Shown here in pieces: positions 3,063 to 37,737 of a stretch of DNA of 37,737 bases. A program made the position numbers and the translations under genes. The stretch lies in IMG/VR virus record IMGVR_UViG_3300015265_000209, positions 1 to 37,737 of that record. One strand, given 5' to 3'. Source of the DNA: a virus. Under the pieces are notes generated by a model. That model was not told where the DNA came from. It ran no database searches and worked only from the letters and a program-made list of their open reading frames with translations. How positions within the stretch are numbered: the first letter of the stretch is position 1; every line of letters begins with the position of its first letter.

Positions 3063-3488
3063 TTAAGCTCCGAAGGATTTTGGGTCGGCGGCGCGTGCGA
3101 CCTGGTCGATCACGCTGCGGGGGAGGGACGAGTCGATGCTGATCGGCGTGCTGCCTGGCGCCACTTCATCCAGCACGGCGCGCAGGGCAGCGCGCATCTC
3201 CATGTTCTGCATCACGATGGTGGCATAGGCCTCGGGCATGGCGGTGCCGGCGCCGCGTGCGTGCAGCATCATGGCGAAGTTGGCCACGTCTACCGGATCA
3301 CCTTTCGCGACTGCGTCGCGCAGCTGCACGCGCAGCGAGGCATCGGTGCACAGTTCAGGGTTATTCCAGCCTGCGCGGCCCTTCAAAGCGGCCTGATTCA
3401 TCTTGCTGGCCATCGCTGTGGCGAAGCTCACCACGGCCTTGGTATCGTCGTGTGCTTCGCGGATAAATGCGTCCATTGGTGCGTTCAT
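3063..3488 (-). CDS. Hypothetical phage protein with GW/KGDPVDVANFAMMLHARG motif
   Basis: The stretch GRAGWNNPELC followed by KGDPVDVANFAMMLHARG is a sequence I recognise from many small uncharacterised phage early proteins, sometimes found next to dATP/dGTP diphosphohydrolase-type domains. Here it is stand-alone, 141 aa, mostly helical, with no membrane segment. The ATG overlaps the parB stop as ATGA (3485-3488), so translation is probably coupled to ParB. A link to nucleotide metabolism would be speculation from the motif alone. I am confident that it is a real gene and not confident of any function. Confidence 0.65.
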   Translation of the reverse strand: MNAPMDAFIREAHDDTKAVVSFATAMASKMNQAALKGRAGWNNPELCTDASLRVQLRDAVAKGDPVDVANFAMMLHARGAGTAMPEAYATIVMQNMEMRAALRAVLDEVAPGSTPISIDSSLPRSVIDQVARAADPKSFGA

Positions 3489-5644
3489 GCTGCTTCCTTC
3501 TCGGTAGTTTCGGACTTGTTGTTATCGTCGCTGGTTAATGCGGACTTGGGCCACGGCCAAGATTCTGCCGGCGCTGGTGCCGGCGCTGTCGGCTTGACCT
3601 TCGGCGCCTTTGCCTTGCCGGCGCGCTTAGCGGGCTCTGGCGCAGCCTGGACGAAATCGGCGGCGTCCACGTAGTCGCCATCGGCGGCAGCGGATTCAGT
3701 GCTCACCTGGCTGGTGGTGTCCGCCGGCGCAAGTGCCGAGGTGGCCACCTCGATTACGGCACCGTCGCTTTTCACCCACGCGCTGCCTGGTGTCGGTGTT
3801 TGCCACTTGCTCCAGGTGTAACCGTTAGCTTCTGCTGCGCGCTGCAGTGCCGCGATGTTGTGCGGCTGCGTGTCTATTACGACGGCGGTCAGCTCCGCCA
3901 GGCGCTCGGGCGCCAGGCGGATGAGGTCGTTAAAGTCTTCACTGGCGATTTCTGCAACGGCGGTGCTGCGAAGATCATGTTCACGGCGCTCGAGTTGGGC
4001 ATCGAGACCTTCGTGTCGCGCCATGTCAACGAGGGTGTTCCAGGTAGGGGTGTAATTTGCATCCTCCAAATCGTGAATGTCGAACGCATCCACCCCCAGG
4101 CACTCGCCCATTACCAGGTCCACCAAGATCAGTTGGACCTCAGGCAGCGTCGCCTGGTCGATGTACGCACACACCGCATCGTCCGTGGCGTCCGGGAATG
4201 GGTACAGGTCGCCGATAAGATCGTCGGGGATGGCGTAATCGTTGTAGCTGCGGACCATCAGCTTCACGAACTCGCGCAGCGACGCCAGGCTAAACCCATT
4301 GGCGCCGCGCTGGCGCAACTTGCGGTAGAGCGATACACGGAACTCAGTTTCTTTGGCTGCCATCTGTCTGGATTTCTCACGCTGCAGCTGTTCTGCCGTG
4401 GGCTGCTCGTCGCCTTTTGCCTGATTAGCCCGTTCCTTTTCGGCCATACGCGACGCGTGCGCTGTGACCGTTTCGCATGCACCAGCCCTTTCCAGTGCTG
4501 CCTGAATTGCAGTGCGATCGTAAATAGCAGTCACGACACCTGTACTGTCCTTGAGGTACTTTACCGGTTTCGGCATGTTGTCTTTACCGATGTAGTCTTC
4601 CGCTCTGCCGGCGTTGCCGGTGGGTGGTGCGTTGCGGTCAAAACGCCAAATTGGAGTGTTGCCGGCCACGAACTCGCTGCCGTGCGCATAGGCGTCTATT
4701 TGCTTTGCCTCGTCGCCTTCGATCACCGGAATGCCGGTCTTGTTGGCGATCACAATCACCTTCGCATAGTGGGCGGCGCGCTTCTCCTCAAAACAGTCTG
4801 GATCGGTGCAGACGTCTGCACTTTTGATGTCCGCAAAGACGAGCGGCTGATTGCCCGAACGTTTAGGGCATTTCGAGCAGGAGCCGGCAGCGGCCAGCAG
4901 CTTGCCGTCACCCACGTCGAAGTTTGCGTAGGACAGGTCCAATGTGTATCGCTGCTGGATGTGCTGCTGTGCGCGGCGGTACGACATCGGCTCAGGCTGA
5001 TATACCGAGGTTGCAGTGATTTCGCCTAACGCGCGCGCCTGGAGCGCCGGCACCGGTATCCGTGCAACGAGCAGGGCGGTGGATGCCGAGATTTCATCGC
5101 TGAGAAATTTCTCGCGCGCCTCGATCGTGAGTGCGCACAGCTTCAAGCGGCCGTAAATGTAGGCGCGACTTTTCTTGATTTTGTCGGCCAACTGGTCGGC
5201 GTTGTAGCCGTGGTTCATCATCAACTGCTCGTAGCCCTCGGCTTCCTCGAGCGGGTGCGGGTCTTCGCGCTGGAGGTTCTCCAGGATCTGGATTTCAGCT
5301 GCCTGTTTGTCGCTCAGCATGCGGCACATCGCCGGGATCGTTGTGACCTCAGCGATGCCCGAGGCGCGCCAGCGGCGCTCCCCGGCGACCAGTTCGTACG
5401 GCTCGGGCTGCTCGATGGTAGGCGTGACAGGACGGATCAGGATGGGCTGCACCACGCCCATTTCCTTGATGTTGGCGGCCAGCTGCTGCAGCGCCACTTC
5501 GTTGAAGCGCTTACGGTTGGTTGGCGACTTGCGAATATCGCTCAGGTTGTAGATGCCATACGTGCCTTGCTCTGCCGGTGCTTCAGCGGCAGGCAACGCC
5601 GGCGATGCCGCAGCCGCGCGCGCGGGGCTTTTTGCTTTGCTCAT
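3485..5644 (-). CDS. parB: ParB/Spo0J-family protein (phage ParB)
   Basis: This long (719 aa) ParB-type protein has an N-terminal ParB/sulfiredoxin-like CTP-binding fold at about residues 30-140, with GERRWRA (88-94) and ENLQREDPHPLEEAEGY (122-138). A helix-turn-helix follows at about 146-170 (YNADQLADKIKKSRAYIYGR). Cysteines C256, C259, C279 and C284 form a likely zinc knuckle. The C-terminal half is unassigned and ends in a long Ala/Pro/Lys-rich linker. Standard ParB proteins are about 300 aa, so this one carries a large extra region. No parA lies nearby, which argues for a regulatory, DNA-compacting or nuclease role rather than classical partition. An AGGAGAG ribosome binding site lies just before the ATG at 5644. 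A near-perfect palindrome inside the gene (4806-4821) is a candidate binding site. Confidence 0.9.
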   Translation of the reverse strand: MSKAKSPARAAAASPALPAAEAPAEQGTYGIYNLSDIRKSPTNRKRFNEVALQQLAANIKEMGVVQPILIRPVTPTIEQPEPYELVAGERRWRASGIAEVTTIPAMCRMLSDKQAAEIQILENLQREDPHPLEEAEGYEQLMMNHGYNADQLADKIKKSRAYIYGRLKLCALTIEAREKFLSDEISASTALLVARIPVPALQARALGEITATSVYQPEPMSYRRAQQHIQQRYTLDLSYANFDVGDGKLLAAAGSCSKCPKRSGNQPLVFADIKSADVCTDPDCFEEKRAAHYAKVIVIANKTGIPVIEGDEAKQIDAYAHGSEFVAGNTPIWRFDRNAPPTGNAGRAEDYIGKDNMPKPVKYLKDSTGVVTAIYDRTAIQAALERAGACETVTAHASRMAEKERANQAKGDEQPTAEQLQREKSRQMAAKETEFRVSLYRKLRQRGANGFSLASLREFVKLMVRSYNDYAIPDDLIGDLYPFPDATDDAVCAYIDQATLPEVQLILVDLVMGECLGVDAFDIHDLEDANYTPTWNTLVDMARHEGLDAQLERREHDLRSTAVAEIASEDFNDLIRLAPERLAELTAVVIDTQPHNIAALQRAAEANGYTWSKWQTPTPGSAWVKSDGAVIEVATSALAPADTTSQVSTESAAADGDYVDAADFVQAAPEPAKRAGKAKAPKVKPTAPAPAPAESWPWPKSALTSDDNNKSETTEKEAA
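4806..4821. repeat. 16-bp palindrome GTGCAGACGTCTGCAC (candidate ParB site)
   Basis: This is a perfect 16-bp palindrome inside parB, over the codons for residues 275-280. Apart from the central two bases it is identical to the intergenic palindrome at 13565-13580 (GTGCAGATGTCTGCAC). A third 14/16 match lies at 16473-16488 in the large terminase gene. Shared palindromes of this length in one window are unlikely by chance. A ParB recognition role is inference. Confidence 0.4.
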
Positions 5645-8356: not shown

Positions 8357-8556
8357 GCGCCTCCGACGTTGTGGCAGCGCCAGATGATGCGGTGCCGTCA
8401 GTCGCCGGGCCGCGCACTCACAAGGGCGCGGCGAATCTCTCGCCACGGCACGTGCTGCGAATGACCTCTATTCGTGAAGGTGCGCACGATTACCGCGACA
8501 TACCGTCGGTGATGGGCGCCGGACGTGTGGCGTACGGTATGAAGGCTAAAGCGTGA
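8353..8556 (+). CDS. Small phage protein, 67 aa, upstream of the primase-helicase
   Basis: The gene overlaps the CII-like gene as ATGA (8353-8356) and the primase-helicase gene as GTGA (8553-8556), so it is tightly coupled to both. The product is basic and soluble (TSIREGAHDYRDIPSVMGAGR), with no recognised family. The position suggests a replication accessory, but nothing in the sequence proves it. The longer frame from 8329 is less likely because it loses the ATGA junction. Confidence 0.6.
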   Translation: MSASDVVAAPDDAVPSVAGPRTHKGAANLSPRHVLRMTSIREGAHDYRDIPSVMGAGRVAYGMKAKA

Positions 8557-11072
8557 CGCTCGACGATTTTGCTGCAGTCAACAGCGCGGCCATCCTTTCC
8601 ATAGAATCGCTGCTGAACTCTTGGTTCCCGAACGGCGTGCGTGAAGGGATCGAGTTTTGTATTGGTTCTTCCTCCGGCGAAGCCGGCAAATCAATGCGTA
8701 TTCGCCTCGAAGGCGACAAGGCCGGGGTATGGGCTGACTTTTCCGACGACGGCGTAGCCGGCGCTGATCTCATTTCCCTCTATGCTCATATCCACGGCGT
8801 GAAACAGGGTAAGGCGTGCGCAGACCTGGCTAAGGAGCTGGGCATTACGCTGACGCCATCTGATTCTTATTCTGGCGCACCGCGCCCTATCGTTTCGGCC
8901 AAGCCGAAAAACATCCCTAGTCGTGCGCCCGCGCAAGCGGACAAAGGGGTACAGGCACTTCCCGAGGCCAAGAAAAAGACGCCGTGGGAACCGCTGTTGC
9001 CGGTCCCTGCCGATGCCGGGCCTTATCCCAAGGCCCACGTGGTGCGCGGCAAACCCGATGTGTCCTGGGAATACCGCGACCAGGGCGGCCGACTGCTGGG
9101 CGTGATCTATCGATTCACGACCTCGGACGGCGGCAAAGAGGTGCTGCCGTGCCTGTTCGCTCAGCACCCGGTGACGCAGCAGCGCGAGTGGCGTTGGATG
9201 GCGTTCCCGGTGCCGCGCCCGCTGTACCTTCGCGGCGCATTGCGGCCCGATTTTCCAGCGATGGTGGTGGAGGGGGAGAAGTGCGTGGATCGGGGGCATG
9301 CGCTCCTGGGTGCCGAACTGGACATGGTGAGCTGGCCCGGTGGCAGCAAAGCAGTCGACAAGGCGGACTGGACGCCGCTGGCGGGCCGCTCAGTCATCCT
9401 GTGGGCCGATGCCGACGCCAAACGCTACAAGGAAAAGCACAAGCTCGCTGGCAAGCTGCTGCCCGAGTCTGAACAGCCTGGCATGTCCGCGATGATCAAA
9501 ATTGCCGGCATCCTGCGTGAGCTGGGCTGCGCCGTTTTCTTTGTCGACATTCCAGCGCCGGGCGAAGTGGCCGACGGATGGGATCTGGCCGACCTGATCG
9601 ATGGCGGCGCCGGTTTTGATGAGGTCATGGCGTGGGTGGCTAAGCTACGGACAAACGTAGTGGAGGATGCTTCGGGCGAGCCGATAGAAGCTCCGCGCAA
9701 TGAGCGCCAGGATGATGTGCCTGACTGGTTTGATGATGCTGCCGCGGGTGGATCTACCCCTTTGCCAGCTGGCGCGGGCATGTCGCCCAAGCAGCTGCGG
9801 TCGGAGTTAATCCAGACCGCTAATGGTGGCGTGAAGGGTTGCCGCGAGAACGTTTACACCGTGATGCAGGGTGACCCGCGCCTGATTGGCTTGGTCGGGC
9901 TGGATCTGTTTTCCGGCCTGCAGGTAAAACGCCGCGCCACGCCCTGGCGCAGCGAGCCGGGCGAATGGACGGAAGGTGACGATTTCCACCTGGGCGTCTA
10001 CTTGTCTCGTCACCATAGTCTGCTGCTAGCCAGCATCGGCGACATCGAGCGCGGTGTCGCGCAGGCAGCGCGCGAGCATGCGTTCAATCCGGTGACCGAT
10101 TACATGGACCGCTGCGCAGCCATGTGGGACGGTGCGCCACGCGTGGCCGGCGCCTTGGGTCGGTATTGGGGGTGTGCGGACAACAGCGAGTACTTGGAAC
10201 TGGTGTCTACCATGTTCTTTGTCGGAATCGTGGTGCGAGCGTATCGCCCGGGCGCCAAGCACGACTATGCGCCAGTGTTTGAAGGTGGCCAGGGTGAGGG
10301 CAAGTCGACTGCCTTGAAGGTGCTGGGGGGCGACTGGTTCGCCGACACGCCTTTCCGCATGGGCGAGAAGGACGGGTACCTGTCGATCCAAGGTGTGCTG
10401 CTGTATGAAGTGGCCGAGCTGGAGCAGTTCAACCGGTCCGAGGTCACGGCGATCAAAGCGTTCATGTCGTCGACCGTCGATCGCTTCCGTGAGCCATACG
10501 GCCGTCGCATGAAAAACATGCCGCGCCGCTGCGCGTTTGCGGCGACAACGAACGAGGGTGAGTATTTTAAAGATTCGACGGGGAACCGGCGCTTCTGGCC
10601 AGTGGCCACCGGGCGCATTGACCTCGATGCGTTGATCGAGGACCGCGACCAGTTGTTCGGCGAGGCTGTGGCCATGATGAATGCCGGCGTGCTGACGTAT
10701 CCAACACGTGAGCAGCAGACGCGACTGGTCTCGCCTCAGCAGGAAAGCCGCGAGATACCTGACCCATGGCATGGTCATATCTATCGCTACCTGGAAGGCA
10801 TCGACGCTGATGGCGTGCCAAAGATCAACGGACGAATCAACCGCGTGACGGTGTTGGACCTGCTGACACGCGGATTGCACTTTGAGGTGTCCAAGCTTGG
10901 CCCGGCCAAGCTGGAAACCATGCGCATCGGCGCAATCATGCGCAAGCTGGGCTGGACGAAAGACCGTGAAACATCGGGCGCGCGCGAGCGGTTCTACGCG
11001 CGCCCGGCAGCGCCTGGCGCGACGGCCGGCGCAGAGGCGCAGGAGGGCGATGATGCGCCACTTCCTTTCTAA
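8553..11072 (+). CDS. Toprim/VapE-type primase-helicase replication protein
   Basis: This 839-aa fusion would initiate phage replication. The N-terminal 100 residues form a primase-associated DNA-binding part (MRIRLEGDKAGVWADF). A Toprim-like region follows, with MVVEGEK near residues 237-243 and WADADAK near 284. The C-terminal half is a VapE/virulence-associated-E ATPase: Walker A GGQGEGKST at 578-586, then YEVAELEQFNRSEVTAIK, RFREPYGR and ATTNEGEYFKDSTGNRRFWP. The start is a GTG overlapping the previous stop. It is full length with all motifs intact. A structured, repeat-rich segment lies directly downstream. No separate helicase loader or DnaB is present, consistent with a self-contained initiator/primase/helicase. 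Confidence 0.9.
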   Translation: MTLDDFAAVNSAAILSIESLLNSWFPNGVREGIEFCIGSSSGEAGKSMRIRLEGDKAGVWADFSDDGVAGADLISLYAHIHGVKQGKACADLAKELGITLTPSDSYSGAPRPIVSAKPKNIPSRAPAQADKGVQALPEAKKKTPWEPLLPVPADAGPYPKAHVVRGKPDVSWEYRDQGGRLLGVIYRFTTSDGGKEVLPCLFAQHPVTQQREWRWMAFPVPRPLYLRGALRPDFPAMVVEGEKCVDRGHALLGAELDMVSWPGGSKAVDKADWTPLAGRSVILWADADAKRYKEKHKLAGKLLPESEQPGMSAMIKIAGILRELGCAVFFVDIPAPGEVADGWDLADLIDGGAGFDEVMAWVAKLRTNVVEDASGEPIEAPRNERQDDVPDWFDDAAAGGSTPLPAGAGMSPKQLRSELIQTANGGVKGCRENVYTVMQGDPRLIGLVGLDLFSGLQVKRRATPWRSEPGEWTEGDDFHLGVYLSRHHSLLLASIGDIERGVAQAAREHAFNPVTDYMDRCAAMWDGAPRVAGALGRYWGCADNSEYLELVSTMFFVGIVVRAYRPGAKHDYAPVFEGGQGEGKSTALKVLGGDWFADTPFRMGEKDGYLSIQGVLLYEVAELEQFNRSEVTAIKAFMSSTVDRFREPYGRRMKNMPRRCAFAATTNEGEYFKDSTGNRRFWPVATGRIDLDALIEDRDQLFGEAVAMMNAGVLTYPTREQQTRLVSPQQESREIPDPWHGHIYRYLEGIDADGVPKINGRINRVTVLDLLTRGLHFEVSKLGPAKLETMRIGAIMRKLGWTKDRETSGARERFYARPAAPGATAGAEAQEGDDAPLPF

Positions 11073-11183
11073 CGTTATGGGCGTTGCTGCAGCAATCGTC
11101 TGCCAGGGATCGTGGGCGCCATGTGCGCAGGCGGAAAAGGCGGAATTGTATGTGGCGTACATGCCCATTTCGGCCAGGCTGGA

Positions 11184-11435
11184 CCAGCCGTCCAACCTCG
11201 CCATTTTTAGGTTGGACGGCTGGAACCCGCATGAACAGCGGCCCCGCCAACCTCCCAACCTCGCCAACCGAAACGCGCCTGCACACGCACGCACGTGCGC
11301 ACGTATACGTGCGTGTGCGGGGTTGCTTTTGGCTTTTGTCCTTCCAGTAGAACCTAGAAATAGGTTGGGTAGGTTGGGAGGTTGGCAAAGCAAGCATCCA
11401 TGCGGGTTTGCGCCGTCCAACCTTTTGCCCAACCT
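11184..11435. repeat. Heptamer repeats and inverted repeats, candidate replication origin
   Basis: This gene-poor segment holds six CCAACCT/G copies on the plus strand (11192, 11247, 11255, 11264, 11417, 11429) and four AGGTTGG copies (11209, 11362, 11371, 11379). The first pair forms a 15-bp perfect inverted repeat (11184-11198 with 11209-11223, 10-nt loop). The next clusters form a 24-bp inverted repeat with two mismatches (11246-11269 with 11363-11386). Inside that lies another hairpin (11281-11291 with 11308-11318). The position after the replication gene suggests an origin; an RNA element is an alternative. The whole interval 11073-11468 contains no gene I can support. Confidence 0.6.
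11280..11319. other. 40-nt alternating purine-pyrimidine tract (Z-DNA-prone, hairpin-forming)
   Basis: Every step in this stretch alternates pyrimidine and purine, mainly CA/TG and CG steps, and includes the palindrome ACGTGCGCACGT (11293-11304). It is the apex of the larger inverted repeat. Such tracts favour left-handed or cruciform DNA under supercoiling. Confidence 0.6.
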
Positions 11436-11468
11436 TTTCGAGGTGGGACCAAATTGCAGGAGATCGAC

Positions 11469-18912: not shown

Positions 18913-20964
18913 ATGCCGCAACCTGAACAACAGCAGCACATCCAGCAGCTGCCGCTCATGGCGCGCGAAGCGCCTGTGACGGCGGTCAGCGCTGAAACCC
19001 GCACCGTTGACCTGGTGTGGAGCACTGGCTCCAGCGTTCTGCGCTGGGACTGGTACGCCGAGCGCTACTACAACGAGGTGTTGAGCCTGGAACCCGCACA
19101 CGTGCGCATGGCGCGCTTACAGTCGGGTCGCGCTCCGCTGCTCAATACCCACAGCCGCTGGGACCTGAGCAGTGTGCTCGGCGTGATCCGCACTGCCGAT
19201 CTGGCAGACGGCCAGGGCGTGGCCACTGCTGAATTTTCCAAGCGTGCGGATGTCGAGCCGTACTACCAGGATGTGGTCGACAAGATCATCGGCAACATCT
19301 CGGTGGGCTATACGGTGCATGCATTCGAGCGCATTCCGCCGACTAATCCTGGCGAGCTTTGGACCTACCTTGCTGTCGACTGGGAACCGACCGAGGCGTC
19401 GCTGGTGCCGATAGGCGCGGATGCGGATGCCGGCGTGCGCAGCATTGACCAGCAGCCGCCCAAGATGCCAGAAGGCCGGCTTAGTCCCTGCACTTTCACC
19501 ACCCGTAGTACCGAACCTACCCAACCACCGGCAGCCGCCGGTTCTACCACCCGAAAGGAAAACACCATGCCTGGTGAAAACACCACCCCGGCGGCGCAAC
19601 CGCCTGCCGTCTCGCAAACTGACCAGCGTGCCCTCGACCAGGCGCGTGCTGACGGCATGCGCGCCGAAGCCGAGCGCCAGTCGGGCATCCGCGAGGCGGT
19701 CACCCTCGGCGGTCTGGACGTCGCCTTTGCAGAGCAGCTCATTGCGCGCTCGGAACTGACGGCTGCCGATGCTGGCCTCGCCGTGCTGCGCGAGCAGGCC
19801 AAGCGCAGCGCCAATAACCCGACCCGCAGTGTCGCCAATATCCAAACCGTTACCGATGAAACGGACGTACGTCGCGCCGCGATCAGCGACGCGATCACGT
19901 TGCGCTGCAACCCGAATGCGGAAGTGCGCCGCAACGCAGAACGTGTCGAAGCTGCGCGCCAATATCGCGGCTTCAACCTGATCGACATGGCGCGTGCCAG
20001 TATCGAAGCGGCAGGTGGCAACACGCGCGGTCTGAGCCGTCGCGAAATCGCCGTGGTGGCGCTCAACCTCGATAACGACATGCGCGGTCGTGCCGGTATG
20101 CAATCGACGTCGGACTTCCCTGAAATCCTCGCCGGTACCGTCACTCGCACGCTGCGCGCGGCCTATCTGCAGCAGTCCCGTACCTTCACCGCATGGGCGC
20201 GTCAAACCACGGCGCCGGACTTCCGCCAGGTGGCGCGTACTCAGCTGTCGGAGTCGTCGGCATTTAAGAAAATCAACGAGGGCGGCGAGTACAAGGCGCT
20301 CACCTTCGGTGAAGGCGCCGAGAAATATGCGCTGTCGAAATTCGGCGGCATTGTCTCTATCACCTGGGAGGCGCTGGTCAACGACGACTTGGGCGCGTTC
20401 GAGCGTATTCCGGTTGCGCTCGCAGCTGAAGCCGCAGCGCTGGAAAGCGACATCGTGTATGGCCTGCTGACCAACAACCAGAAGATGTCCGATGGTAAGG
20501 CGCTGTTCCACGCTGATCACGGCAACCTGGCCGGCGCCGGCAGTGCGATCGATGAAGTCTCGCTGGGCGCCGCTCGCGCCGCCATGCGCAAGCAAAAGGG
20601 CTTGAAGGGCCGCGTGCTGAACTTGACCCCGTCTTACCTGATCGTTGGTCCGGACAACGAGACGGCGGCGAACAAGTACACCAGCGCCTCGTTCGTGGCT
20701 GCCAAGGCCAGCGACATTAACCCGAACTACAACACTTCCTTGGAAGTGGTGGTAGAAGCGCGTATCGAAGGCCGTGATTGGTTCATGTCCGCTGCCCCAG
20801 GGATGGTTGACACCATCGAATACGCCTATTTGGAAGGCGAGGAGGGCCTGTACACCGAACAGCGCCAGGGCTTCGAGGTGGATGGCTTGCAGATTAAAGC
20901 GCGCCACGCATTCGCTGCAGCTCCGATCGACTGGCGCGGTCTGTGGAAAACCCCCGGCGCCTAA
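18913..20964 (+). CDS. Prohead protease-major capsid protein fusion
   Basis: The 683-aa product joins two functions that are separate in most phages. Residues about 1-190 are a prohead protease domain (LLNTHSRWDLSSVLGVIRTA, FSKRADVEPYYQDVVDKII, GNISVGYTVH, DWEPTEASLVPIGADADAGV). A Pro/Thr-rich linker (about 195-235) leads to a delta-like helical scaffold region and an HK97-fold major capsid protein (about 400-683; ALTFGEGAEKYALSKFGGIV, FHADHGNLAG). The Asn/His catalytic environment of the protease is typical but I cannot assign the nucleophile with certainty. The true start is the ATG at 18913 with GAGGT upstream. A good internal ribosome binding site and ATG at 19567 could produce the capsid half alone. 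Confidence 0.9.
   Translation: MPQPEQQQHIQQLPLMAREAPVTAVSAETRTVDLVWSTGSSVLRWDWYAERYYNEVLSLEPAHVRMARLQSGRAPLLNTHSRWDLSSVLGVIRTADLADGQGVATAEFSKRADVEPYYQDVVDKIIGNISVGYTVHAFERIPPTNPGELWTYLAVDWEPTEASLVPIGADADAGVRSIDQQPPKMPEGRLSPCTFTTRSTEPTQPPAAAGSTTRKENTMPGENTTPAAQPPAVSQTDQRALDQARADGMRAEAERQSGIREAVTLGGLDVAFAEQLIARSELTAADAGLAVLREQAKRSANNPTRSVANIQTVTDETDVRRAAISDAITLRCNPNAEVRRNAERVEAARQYRGFNLIDMARASIEAAGGNTRGLSRREIAVVALNLDNDMRGRAGMQSTSDFPEILAGTVTRTLRAAYLQQSRTFTAWARQTTAPDFRQVARTQLSESSAFKKINEGGEYKALTFGEGAEKYALSKFGGIVSITWEALVNDDLGAFERIPVALAAEAAALESDIVYGLLTNNQKMSDGKALFHADHGNLAGAGSAIDEVSLGAARAAMRKQKGLKGRVLNLTPSYLIVGPDNETAANKYTSASFVAAKASDINPNYNTSLEVVVEARIEGRDWFMSAAPGMVDTIEYAYLEGEEGLYTEQRQGFEVDGLQIKARHAFAAAPIDWRGLWKTPGA
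19554..19569 (+). promoter_or_regulatory. Internal ribosome binding site and ATG within the protease-capsid fusion
   Basis: AAAGGAA (19554-19560), a short spacer and an in-frame ATG at 19567 lie exactly at the end of the low-complexity linker between the protease and the scaffold/capsid parts. Use of this start would give a 465-aa capsid precursor without the protease. Confidence 0.5.
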
Positions 20965-32375: not shown

Positions 32376-34970
32376 ATGTCCGCTCTCACCATCCAAGATT
32401 TGAACAACGGTAAGAAAGACCTCGAGCACATCGAGGCGCTGGCCACCTCTGAGGCGTTGACTGCTCAGGACCGTTTCGGCAAGTCCAAGCTCACGCTCGC
32501 CGGCGTGCTGTCAAAGATTCCCGACTCTGGCATCAAGGGCTATCCGACACTGGCAAGTCTCAATGCGGACCTGTCGCCGCCGTCGCAGATGATGGCATTC
32601 GTAACGAACGACCCAACGCCGAGTAACAATGGCACGTACCGCAAGGAGGGGGCGCCGGGCGCAGGGAACTGGGTGCTTGCCAATGACCTGGTCACTGCGC
32701 TTGACGTCGCCGGACCCTTGGCCTCGATTGATGCAGACCTCTCCATCACCGTGGATCTCGGGCAAAAGAAAATTACCGTCCATCAGGCTGGCGTGGTGAT
32801 GCATCGGCGCGGCTTTAGCAGCATTCCAGCCGGGCAGGTTGTCGCCTTTTCGTACTCGTATCCGGGCAACCTGATGTACCTGCACGCGAACAAGGCGACA
32901 GGTGTGGTCGCTATTACCGAGGTCCTCCAAGGGCAGCCTCCGGTGGGTTCCGTAGTGCTGGGGTACATCCTTGGTCAAAAACTGTACGCCGAGGACCGGT
33001 CGTGCCGAATACTCGTCATTCCGGTGAACACCGGCGTGAGCAGTGGGCAACTGGAGGCCATGGGCACATTTATTTGTGCACCGGGCGGGTTGACCCTCAA
33101 CATGGCCACCAAACGCGTTACCACCGACGCGCAGGGCGGCATCATCGCGTACCGTGGTGGTTTCGTTGAGGTGGCAGGCAACCAGGACATTGCCTTCACA
33201 TGGACCTACCCTGCAGGGTTGGGGTGGCTATTCGTCAATCCTAAGTCGGGCACACTCGGCATGACGGATGCGGCGGCCACACCCCCTGCGGGAGTGCCCG
33301 TCATCGGGATGGTCTGGAACAGCAAGCTGTACACCCAGTCGGACAACCGTAATGTGAAATTCGTTGACGCTAATGGAACGTCGCGTCGCTGCAAAGGCCT
33401 CTCCAGTGACGAGTCCAACCTGGGTACCGTGACTGCAGGACTCGGCGTTACGATTAATCTGGCCACTGGAATGGTGAGAACGACCGGCGCTGCCAACACC
33501 GGCATCGTGTTGGGAGGTGGCGATTACGTCATCGTGCCAGGTGGTCAGGCCGTATCGTTTTCGGCGGCCAGTTCTGAATTCCTGGTATGGGTTTACGTTG
33601 ACCGATCCACCGGTGATGTAGGGGTTTTAGTGGCTCCTGAGGATTTGCCGGCGAATGTGCTGCCCATTGCAGCGGTGTACCAGCAGCGGTTGTATGCAAA
33701 CGATCCATATCAGAAAATTGAGCTGATCGACGCCGCAGGGAATGTGGTCTCTCGTCCTGGTACAGTGCAGTTTGATGAAAAGGCCCACCGTTTGATTCTG
33801 CCAGACGACATGTATTTTTGGGAGCATCAATCCATGGCGCTGTTCAAGGGCCGCTGCTTCTCGTCGAATGCGGTGCAGATCATGAACGAGATCCGCTTGT
33901 GGCTCGACACGAAAGGTCCTGATATCGCTGATCGTTTTCAGTGCGTCGAACAGGTGCTCAAGCTGAACCCACTTCAGTTGGGCGCCCAGTTCGAGCTGGG
34001 CTTCCGGCACGAGGCTAAGCCGATGGTGCGGTACCTCCAGCCGATCAACCGGCGTATGGCTGCACCAGATGCGTTGAACGGCCGTGCAATTCGGTGGCTG
34101 CCGATGGGCGACTCGCTGACCGAAGTGGGGATGGTGGCGACCAACGTCAACAACCTCACAGCTCACGGCGCTGTGGTGACGCCGCTCGGTACGTACTCGT
34201 CTGAATATACAGAGGGCTACGTGGGGGAAGGGCGCGGATACTGGAACTACCGAAGCTTCATCGGCAAGGACAATTTCAGCGCCGGTATTGGTCCTCACAC
34301 TCGCAGCCCCGGCGGGAAAGCGAGTACTTCTAAATTTGAAAATCCATTTCTTAAACCGGCCAGCCCGGCCGATAAAGCGGCGCATCCAACATGGTGTTTC
34401 CGATTTACCGGGGTAGATCGCGAAGTGTCGTATACGGATGCGACGGACAAGACGGGTGAATTTTTCATCTTTGATTTCGCCTGGTACATGGCGCAGCACT
34501 CCGTGCCGGCGCCAGACGTTATCACCATCGCGCTGTCGACCAACGACATTAATCTTGACACCGGAAACTATACGAAGGCTGAGCGGATGCAGTACATGCG
34601 CCTCGGCCTGCAGGTCATGGTGCGGCAAATTAAGGCGGCCTTACCAAACGTAAAGATCGGCATCATCCCTGCACCCGGCTGGTCCTCTACGACGATGGGT
34701 GACGCTGTCTGGCAGGACGAAACAAGCGCCTGGATCGAGCAGTGCCAAACGGATGTGCGCGCCCTGCAGGTCGAATTTGCGGGGCTGTACGTCGTACCAG
34801 TGTGGCCCTTCATGTCGCTCGACTGGGCTTATCCCTATGATAGCGCTCAAGCCATTTCTCCAGTGAATAAGTCGCAGCGCCGCGCCATCGTCGACTGGGT
34901 GCATTTCGACGCGGTTGGGCGCCAACAGTACGCGCAGGTAGTTGGTGCCTGGATGGCGAACGTCCTGTAG
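32376..34970 (+). CDS. Tail fibre/spike with three internal repeats and SGNH hydrolase domain
   Basis: The 864-aa product has an N-terminal tail-attachment part (about 1-110). Three related repeats of roughly 100 residues follow (about 118-215, 229-331 and 349-451), each running from ITVDL/LTLNM/VTINL through YxxxxGxxxxI to QKLY/SKLY/QRLY and a final ILVI/VKFV/IELI strand. A C-terminal SGNH/GDSL hydrolase contains GDS (S580), STND (N723, D724) and DWVH (D840, H843), a complete catalytic set. Such enzymes deacetylate or de-esterify surface polysaccharides, so this is probably the receptor-processing fibre. No chaperone gene follows. Substrate is unknown. Confidence 0.85.
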   Translation: MSALTIQDLNNGKKDLEHIEALATSEALTAQDRFGKSKLTLAGVLSKIPDSGIKGYPTLASLNADLSPPSQMMAFVTNDPTPSNNGTYRKEGAPGAGNWVLANDLVTALDVAGPLASIDADLSITVDLGQKKITVHQAGVVMHRRGFSSIPAGQVVAFSYSYPGNLMYLHANKATGVVAITEVLQGQPPVGSVVLGYILGQKLYAEDRSCRILVIPVNTGVSSGQLEAMGTFICAPGGLTLNMATKRVTTDAQGGIIAYRGGFVEVAGNQDIAFTWTYPAGLGWLFVNPKSGTLGMTDAAATPPAGVPVIGMVWNSKLYTQSDNRNVKFVDANGTSRRCKGLSSDESNLGTVTAGLGVTINLATGMVRTTGAANTGIVLGGGDYVIVPGGQAVSFSAASSEFLVWVYVDRSTGDVGVLVAPEDLPANVLPIAAVYQQRLYANDPYQKIELIDAAGNVVSRPGTVQFDEKAHRLILPDDMYFWEHQSMALFKGRCFSSNAVQIMNEIRLWLDTKGPDIADRFQCVEQVLKLNPLQLGAQFELGFRHEAKPMVRYLQPINRRMAAPDALNGRAIRWLPMGDSLTEVGMVATNVNNLTAHGAVVTPLGTYSSEYTEGYVGEGRGYWNYRSFIGKDNFSAGIGPHTRSPGGKASTSKFENPFLKPASPADKAAHPTWCFRFTGVDREVSYTDATDKTGEFFIFDFAWYMAQHSVPAPDVITIALSTNDINLDTGNYTKAERMQYMRLGLQVMVRQIKAALPNVKIGIIPAPGWSSTTMGDAVWQDETSAWIEQCQTDVRALQVEFAGLYVVPVWPFMSLDWAYPYDSAQAISPVNKSQRRAIVDWVHFDAVGRQQYAQVVGAWMANVL

Positions 34971-36948: not shown

Positions 36949-37737
36949 ATGGCAATGCCAATCATTCCCTGGATCGGCGGCAAGCGTCGTCTTGCTGACC
37001 GCATCATCCCCCAGTTCCCCGCGCACAAGTGCTATGTCGAAGTGTTCGCCGGCGGCGCAGCGCTGTATTTCATGCGGCCACCAGCGGAGGTCGAAGTCAT
37101 CAACGATGTGAACGGCGAACTGGTCAACCTTTACCGGGTGGTGAAGAATCACCTCGAGGAATTTGTTCGCCAGTTCAAGTACGCGCTCTCGAGCCGCGAT
37201 GTGTTCAAGTGGTTGCAGCAGACACCACCCCACACCCTCACGGACATTCAGCGAGCAGCGCGTTTTTTCTACCTGCAGCAGCAGGCTTTTGGCGGGAAGG
37301 TAGAAGGGCAGACGTGGGGCACTGCCACGACGGCGCCACCGGTCAATCTGCTTCGCATCGAAGAGAACCTGTCCGCAGCGCATCTGCGGCTCACTGGCGC
37401 CTACATCGAGAACATGGACTGGTACGAGTGCATGGAGCGATACGATCGCCCTCATACCCTGTTCTACCTTGATCCGCCGTACTGGGAGACAGCTGGATAC
37501 GGGGTCGAGTTTGATTTTGCCCAGTACGAGAAAATGGCAGAACTGATGTCGCGTCTAAAGGGGAAAGCAATTCTCAGCCTGAACGACCACCCGGATATCC
37601 GGCGGGTATTTGCGCGCTTCGAAATGGATAGCACAGGAATCAACTACATCGTAGGGGGCGGCGGCAAGGGCGTCGAGCGCAACGAGCTTATTATCTACAG
37701 CTGGGATCGGGCTGCTGAGCCTGCGGGTTTGTTCTAG
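36949..37737 (+). CDS. DNA adenine methyltransferase, D12/Dam class
   Basis: The 262-aa enzyme has the order of D12-class N6-adenine methyltransferases: PWIGGKRRL (7-15), SAM-binding motif I FAGGAALYF (33-41), IND (51-53) and catalytic motif IV DPPYW (175-179). It is probably active and makes adenine methylation, perhaps at GATC as in the Dam group, but the site cannot be read from sequence. No restriction enzyme follows. It lies after the lysis cassette, at the edge of the prophage, and is separated from the late operon. Roles could be protection against host restriction or changing host gene expression. The stop is at the last base of the window. Confidence 0.9.
   Translation: MAMPIIPWIGGKRRLADRIIPQFPAHKCYVEVFAGGAALYFMRPPAEVEVINDVNGELVNLYRVVKNHLEEFVRQFKYALSSRDVFKWLQQTPPHTLTDIQRAARFFYLQQQAFGGKVEGQTWGTATTAPPVNLLRIEENLSAAHLRLTGAYIENMDWYECMERYDRPHTLFYLDPPYWETAGYGVEFDFAQYEKMAELMSRLKGKAILSLNDHPDIRRVFARFEMDSTGINYIVGGGGKGVERNELIIYSWDRAAEPAGLF

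Follow-up and report, generated by a model that had tools for sequence, protein, structure and literature searches.

The stretch that follows the vapE gene of a temperate phage is very probably the double-stranded replication origin of that phage, with the adjoining 839-aa VapE-type protein as its self-loading initiator, as judged by comparative sequence analysis. It is probably best read as an iteron origin of the SaPI/PICI type, in a variant whose centre carries an alternating purine-pyrimidine tract. The initial annotation had suggested a new type of origin. What stands of this suggestion is an iteron origin read by VapE, which is strongly supported by comparison of relatives and by homology to PriRep1, whereas the class itself is already known, having been published for SaPIs and PICIs.

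The DNA analysed (an IMG/VR record of 37.7 kb, hereafter the window) encodes an integrase, CI/Cro/CII-like regulators, the VapE-type protein, terminases, portal, head, tail and lysis genes, and its source is a temperate tailed phage. The virion and packaging set comprises the terminase small and large subunits, portal, major head/protease, head decoration, tape measure, a tail protein and endolysin. Because full virion and packaging genes are encoded, the element is not a PICI, a PICI being a satellite without the complete set. The vapE stop codon lies at 11072 and is followed by a non-coding stretch that reaches to the next likely gene, at about 11469. Scanning of the ORFs agreed with the earlier statement that the array adjoins the only replication protein: no other replication gene was recognised, a ParB-like protein aside. 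The latter (3485-5644, minus strand, 719 aa) has ParB_N and ParB HTH parts and a long C-terminal part, is unusually long for a ParB, and is encoded in the region upstream of the repressor gene, 5.5 kb from the array. At the end of the window, a DNA methyltransferase gene (36949-37737) is truncated by the end of the record. GC skew is monotonic across the window, tracks gene direction and is uninformative. The DnaA box pattern TTWTNCACA has a single match in the whole window, at 20942, far from the array, and none within it.

The array occupies 11184-11435, as the initial annotation had it, and its first iteron arm begins 112 nt past the vapE stop. The parts of the locus are as follows.

8553 to 11072, plus strand: gene of the VapE-type primase-helicase, 839 aa (Pfam PF05272, E 1.7e-67), the putative self-loading initiator.
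11103 to 11140, plus strand: accessory element, consisting of CCAGGGATCG, a 5-bp hairpin (11115-11119/11125-11129) and CGGAAAAGG.
11184 to 11223, no strand: outer left inverted iteron pair, CCAGCCGTCCAACCT / AGGTTGGACGGCTGG, with a 10-nt loop, conserved in relatives.
11224 to 11235, no strand: non-iteron element AACCCGCATG, inverted partner of 11397-11408.
11247 to 11269, plus strand: left inner iterons CCAACCTC CCAACCTCG CCAACC, three direct copies at 8- and 9-nt pitch.
11280 to 11319, no strand: perfect alternating purine-pyrimidine tract of 40 nt with an 11-pair hairpin, the presumed supercoil-sensitive centre.
11324 to 11361, no strand: relatively A+T-rich part of the centre, the likely unwinding site, its position conserved in alignment A2.
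11362 to 11385, minus strand: right inner iterons AGGTTGGGT AGGTTGGG AGGTTGG, three opposed copies at 9- and 8-nt pitch.
11397 to 11408, no strand: right copy of the non-iteron element, CATGCGGGTT, from alignment and pairing of relatives.
11417 to 11435, plus strand: outer right iterons, two exact heptamers (exact matches).
11441 to 11449, plus strand: degenerate third outer right iteron AGGTGGGAC, with AGGTTGGAC at the same place in relative L012.

Where ten CCAACCT/AGGTTGG heptamers had been counted, we find nine exact copies (at 11192, 11247, 11255, 11417 and 11429 and, in inverse orientation, at 11209, 11362, 11371 and 11379) and one hexamer (11264-11269 reads CCAACC, then G). The nine compare with 0.023 heptamers expected in 244 bp (Poisson P about 6e-21), and elsewhere in the window CCAACCT occurs once, at 33415. 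The previously described 15-bp perfect hairpin is present (11184-11198/11209-11223, 100% complementary, 10-nt loop), and so is the alternating tract, which is exactly 40 nt long; no other perfectly alternating 40-mer occurs in the window. An interrupted inverted repeat lies where one of 24 bp had been described, but its length is 23 nt (11247-11269/11363-11385); this inverted triple array belongs to a 61-nt arm pair (11209-11269/11363-11423) with 77% complementarity. Reading frames across the array are disrupted by 1-nt indels in relatives (alignment A2), which bears out the view that the region is non-coding. The best 30 nt of the centre are 37% GC in a phage of ~59% GC, the other half being the G+C-rich alternating tract; classical iteron origins are richer in A+T at this place, which counts against the origin reading. 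A G-quadruplex reading of GGTTGGGTAGGTTGGGAGGTTGG was rejected (many relatives have GGTTAG), as was a leader peptide past the vapE stop (GTG near AGGGATC), for which the spacing is too short and the frame is not preserved.

Absence of the repeats from close relatives, which the initial annotation had named as evidence against an origin, was not found: a VapE protein search recovered 13 relatives (ten at 66-87% identity and three distant ones at 38-47%), and each of them has this array, 90-185 nt past its vapE stop. A blastn search of the array against the phage collection returned no relatives; these came from protein and pattern scans in IMG/VR. When the DNA alone was scanned with the array core, 45 IMG/VR phage contigs were found, and in 42 of them a VapE homologue (31-92% identity) ends beside the array. 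As for the other three, L039 and L009 are one contig, L033 proved to have vapE with more divergent queries, and L019 ends <200 bp from the array. In 399 Burkholderiales genomes the array-core pattern gave one match, after a prophage vapE in Janthinobacterium. The neighbouring genes differ among 33 loci (14 unrelated clusters after the array, 12 before vapE), vapE being the sole constant neighbour. Given such conservation across the sequences compared, a chance origin of the array is untenable.

Two further elements accompany the iterons. The flanks of the accessory element are invariant in 20 relatives and its hairpin is variable, with changes on both sides in two of the five pairs. This element was found in most AGGTTGG loci and in L074 and L075, and in variant form elsewhere; lying between the vapE stop and the iterons, it is common to lineages with different iteron words (L014:3346-3394; L075 and L063, just past the vapE stop). 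It may be a signal for single-strand priming or else an element of the mRNA. In the AACCCGCATG element 93% of cells are paired, with compensatory changes in L022 and L072. The non-iteron motif at these places (11224-11235 and 11397-11408; GCGGGTTTCAG / CTGAAACCCGC) stands beside the outer iterons in several lineages with different iteron words, with L074, L076 and L142 having it in the right flank; it is inverted in most loci and a direct repeat (CAAGCACTGGCGCGGG) in L078 and L083. Motif GGGTTTCAG occurs in 14 of 80 loci against 7% of control windows, which is suggestive only.

A wider profile scan contributed 80 more VapE loci, supplemented by annotated phages and plasmids. We then took 80 non-redundant loci chosen by VapE only, with the 900 nt after the vapE stop as the 3' window. 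Of these 80, 56 have their best inverted repeat in the 3' window against 9.5 expected (binomial P about 1e-33), 60 have their best 7-mer clustering there, and 71 have either. In the remaining nine loci, which count against the origin reading, neither statistic singled out the 3' region. IMG/VR loci are often fragments, and 7-mer statistics miss degenerate arrays. A same-strand iteron pair at 8-10-nt pitch that faces a pair on the opposite strand is present in 52 of the 74 loci with a clustered word, versus 2 of 663 control windows, and the gap between the facing pairs has a median of 105 nt (IQR 98-115). These facing-pair loci use 26 different words; the geometry is kept while the word is wholly changed. 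Most iterons within one lineage carry one lineage-specific word (examples are AGGTTGG, TATGGAA, GTTAGGA, GGTAGGA, GTCCCAC, ATGACCA, GGTAACA and CTGTTCA; TTCCATACC is the iteron word of another lineage). The alternating tract likewise has its best example of the locus in the 3' window in 59 of 80 cases (9.5 expected), conserved in position and not in sequence.

Arrays directly follow vapE in Staphylococcus phage phiSP15-1, Corynebacterium phage IME1320_01 and Bacteroides phage F2, and, among plasmids, in E. coli pLAO97 and the 4.3-kb Gluconobacter pGO128. Some origins, such as those of Aval, VarioGold and a Comamonas plasmid, are array-like by eye and weak or non-significant in the statistics, and no clear array was seen after vapE in Burkholderia phage Mica or Croceibacter phage P2559Y. 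Across the loci compared, the layout is recurrent in viruses and plasmids of four bacterial phyla, with its own repeat word in each lineage. In general it consists of an outer inverted pair, two to three direct iterons 8-10 bp apart, a ~105-bp centre made of the alternating purine/pyrimidine tract and an A+T-richer patch, and mirrored iterons. That one word recurs at many sites, in direct and in inverted orientation, speaks for a single co-inherited DNA-binding protein.

Some lineages depart from this layout in detail. In the Pseudomonas-type loci (L067, L102-L145) vapE and the array are separated by a small ORF of ~120 codons; the array is thereby displaced by ~375 nt and keeps its geometry. 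A distant VapE of about 682 aa (31% identity) in L024, L030, L043, L046, L048 and L049 is accompanied by a reduced origin with 2+2 iterons (CTAACC / GGTTGG) and a purine-rich, A+T-rich centre without the alternating tract. The reduced origin of this group may be a minimal form.

An AlphaFold2 model of the VapE protein (19 aligned sequences, mean pLDDT 79.7) has a CHC2-like zinc-finger fold at 1-104, a TOPRIM domain at about 147-375, an SF3 helicase at about 413-735 and a C-terminal winged helix at 738-816, with the order helix-strand-helix-helix-strand-strand. Residues 1-104 are matched by the zinc-binding domain of DnaG, and residues 147-375 by its RNA polymerase domain. Among solved structures the best relative, in sequence as in fold, is PDB 7pds, PriRep1 with dsDNA (hmmsearch E 1.4e-74; Foldseek E 1e-30; VIA Z 34.2 over 413-825, the winged helix included), which we take to be the SaPI1 protein from the name PriRep1 and the SaPI5 entries released alongside. 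Because zinc-finger-like, TOPRIM, SF3 helicase and winged-helix parts are fused in the model, a single polypeptide could plausibly bind, unwind and prime.

Architecture, vapE linkage and PriRep1 homology are observed; for binding, opening and loading we infer the following course by analogy with SaPI Reps and PICI origins. The C-terminal winged helix of VapE would bind the iterons, and two oppositely oriented helicase rings would assemble, one per half-site. The supercoil-sensitive centre would then open between the half-sites, the rings would load back to back on the two strands to give divergent forks, and the fused TOPRIM domain would lay the first primers. This would amount to theta initiation in the SaPI/PICI (and P4-alpha-like) mode, with no sign of a need for DnaA.

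The arms of the array can also pair as one long hairpin, and the region could instead act as a structured RNA within the vapE message, downstream of its coding part (an antiterminator, an immunity RNA or similar). The fold of the strand is very stable (-77.3 kcal/mol versus a shuffled mean of -45.4; z -8.65, with DNA parameters), 87.7% of cells are paired in 20 relatives, where nine pairs are changed on both sides (above column shuffles), and the CCAGGGATCG/GGAAAAGG flanks are conserved around a variable hairpin. However, iteron position 2 is unpaired (C facing A) in 7 and 9 of the 20 sequences at two paired iterons, and C[C/T]AACC suits a tolerant duplex-DNA motif. Moreover, direct and inverted copies, the outer ones included, share one word per lineage, although base pairing needs no such sharing. 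It is because of the position-2 mismatches and the single word per lineage that we favour duplex iterons. An RNA would also have to be reconciled with the presence of the array in small plasmids without phage late genes, and with searches that found no promoter-like site in the array and no Rfam family at gathering score in the region; the best Rfam matches, SNORD17 (25 bits, cut-off 45) and mir-3149 (24 bits, cut-off 100), are look-alikes of eukaryotic snoRNA/miRNA and were rejected, all being sub-threshold. We consider the RNA reading unlikely. The array may have a secondary structural role, since the long hairpin can form, with a few compensatory changes in non-iteron segments.

The position of the array between vapE and the genes leading to terminase and structural genes, together with one terminator-like hairpin inside it, would fit an operator array for a transcription regulator, or a terminator, at the early-to-late gene switch. 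This is very unlikely, since the regulator and downstream genes vary and vapE is constant, no promoter-like site is present, the terminator count is at chance level, a two-sided symmetry about a melting-prone centre is unusual for operators, and plasmids without late genes carry the array. A partition site (centromere) served by the 719-aa ParB-like protein encoded 5.5 kb away is extremely unlikely: the genes flanking the array vary in the 33 compared loci around a constant vapE, and Staphylococcus and Bacteroides phages and pGO128 have vapE-side arrays with no ParB annotated nearby. The terminase small-subunit gene, ~3.2 kb downstream, could hint at a packaging site (cos/pac), yet Variovorax phage VarioGold has its annotated cosR (39420-39429 of the phage record) some 1.6 kb away from the array that follows vapE (about 37622-37832 of that record), plasmids without terminase carry the array, and the array tracks vapE; the probability of a packaging site is close to nil.

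An origin read by VapE, the reading that we prefer, lends itself to a wider proposal, which we put forward tentatively and hold at somewhat under even chances: that VapE primase-helicases define a general replicon class, spanning phages and plasmids of at least four phyla, with one origin geometry (iteron sets of 8-10-bp pitch that face each other across about 105 bp, with a Z-DNA-prone alternating tract and an adjoining A+T-richer patch between them) and an iteron word that is replaced in all copies in each lineage. The word would be an interchangeable identity tag that the co-inherited winged helix reads, and supercoil energy for opening would be stored in the alternating tract as well as in an A+T-rich element. 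Replication proteins of the VapE type are common in temperate phages but have been little studied and are still named 'virulence-associated', and a predictable origin beside each vapE would offer a route to origins in hundreds of phages and plasmids and to minimal replicons. It would also provide a system for studying the joint change of specificity of an initiator and all its binding sites, a question that touches on replicon exclusion and on the way in which satellites maintain a separate identity. A literature search found no description of such origins for VapE phages. Three features appear new: the carriers, which are small plasmids and ordinary temperate phages from several phyla; the fixed spacing, kept while the word is completely replaced; and the conservation of the alternating tract. 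In Streptococcus thermophilus phages an origin follows a P4-alpha-like primase gene, which, if correct, would lessen the novelty.

Among known systems, bacterial iteron plasmids have origins with one-sided iterons of ~20 bp, DnaA boxes and a Rep_3-type protein. They share with the present array the tandem initiator-specific iterons beside a melting region, whereas here the iterons are 8-9 bp, two-sided and with no DnaA box in the array. The alpha protein of phage P4 combines a TOPRIM-type primase, an SF3 helicase and, at its C terminus, a winged helix for the binding of short repeats, which is the same one-protein domain set as in VapE. P4, however, has two separate sites (ori/crr) and a different repeat. 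The description of alpha as a TOPRIM primase is given in PMC4234260. The archaeal plasmid pRN1 uses as its origin a stem-loop that immediately follows the gene for ORF904, a protein with primase, SF3 helicase and winged helix (PMC4234260); pRN1 lacks iterons and its primase is archaeo-eukaryotic, whereas here iterons dominate and the primase is TOPRIM-like. The C-terminal domain of the SCCmec helicase Cch2 binds short repeats just downstream of its own gene (PMC7581432), but that site has three 5-nt direct iterons, unmirrored, and the primase-polymerase is separate.

The closest likeness is to the SaPI/PICI origins (SaPIbov1, SaPI1, EcCICFT073), which also lie immediately 3' of the initiator gene and have short element-specific iterons in two sets around a centre, the melting region in SaPI/PICI origins (PMC6092414); the helicase and winged helix of VapE are homologous to those of SaPI1 PriRep1. 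SaPI Reps recognise, with their C-terminal domain, iterons directly downstream of their own gene (PMC7581432). PICI origins always have two iteron sets flanking an AT-rich region and support plasmid maintenance, and rep plus ori of EcCICFT073 supports autonomous plasmid replication (PMC6092414). The putative origins described here differ in that their carriers are full temperate phages and small plasmids, in that a conserved alternating purine/pyrimidine tract shares the centre with the A+T-richer patch, and in the extra outer inverted iteron pairs and non-iteron inverted element. They would thereby widen an organisation, that of two iteron sets, which has been regarded as unique to PICIs (PMC6092414).
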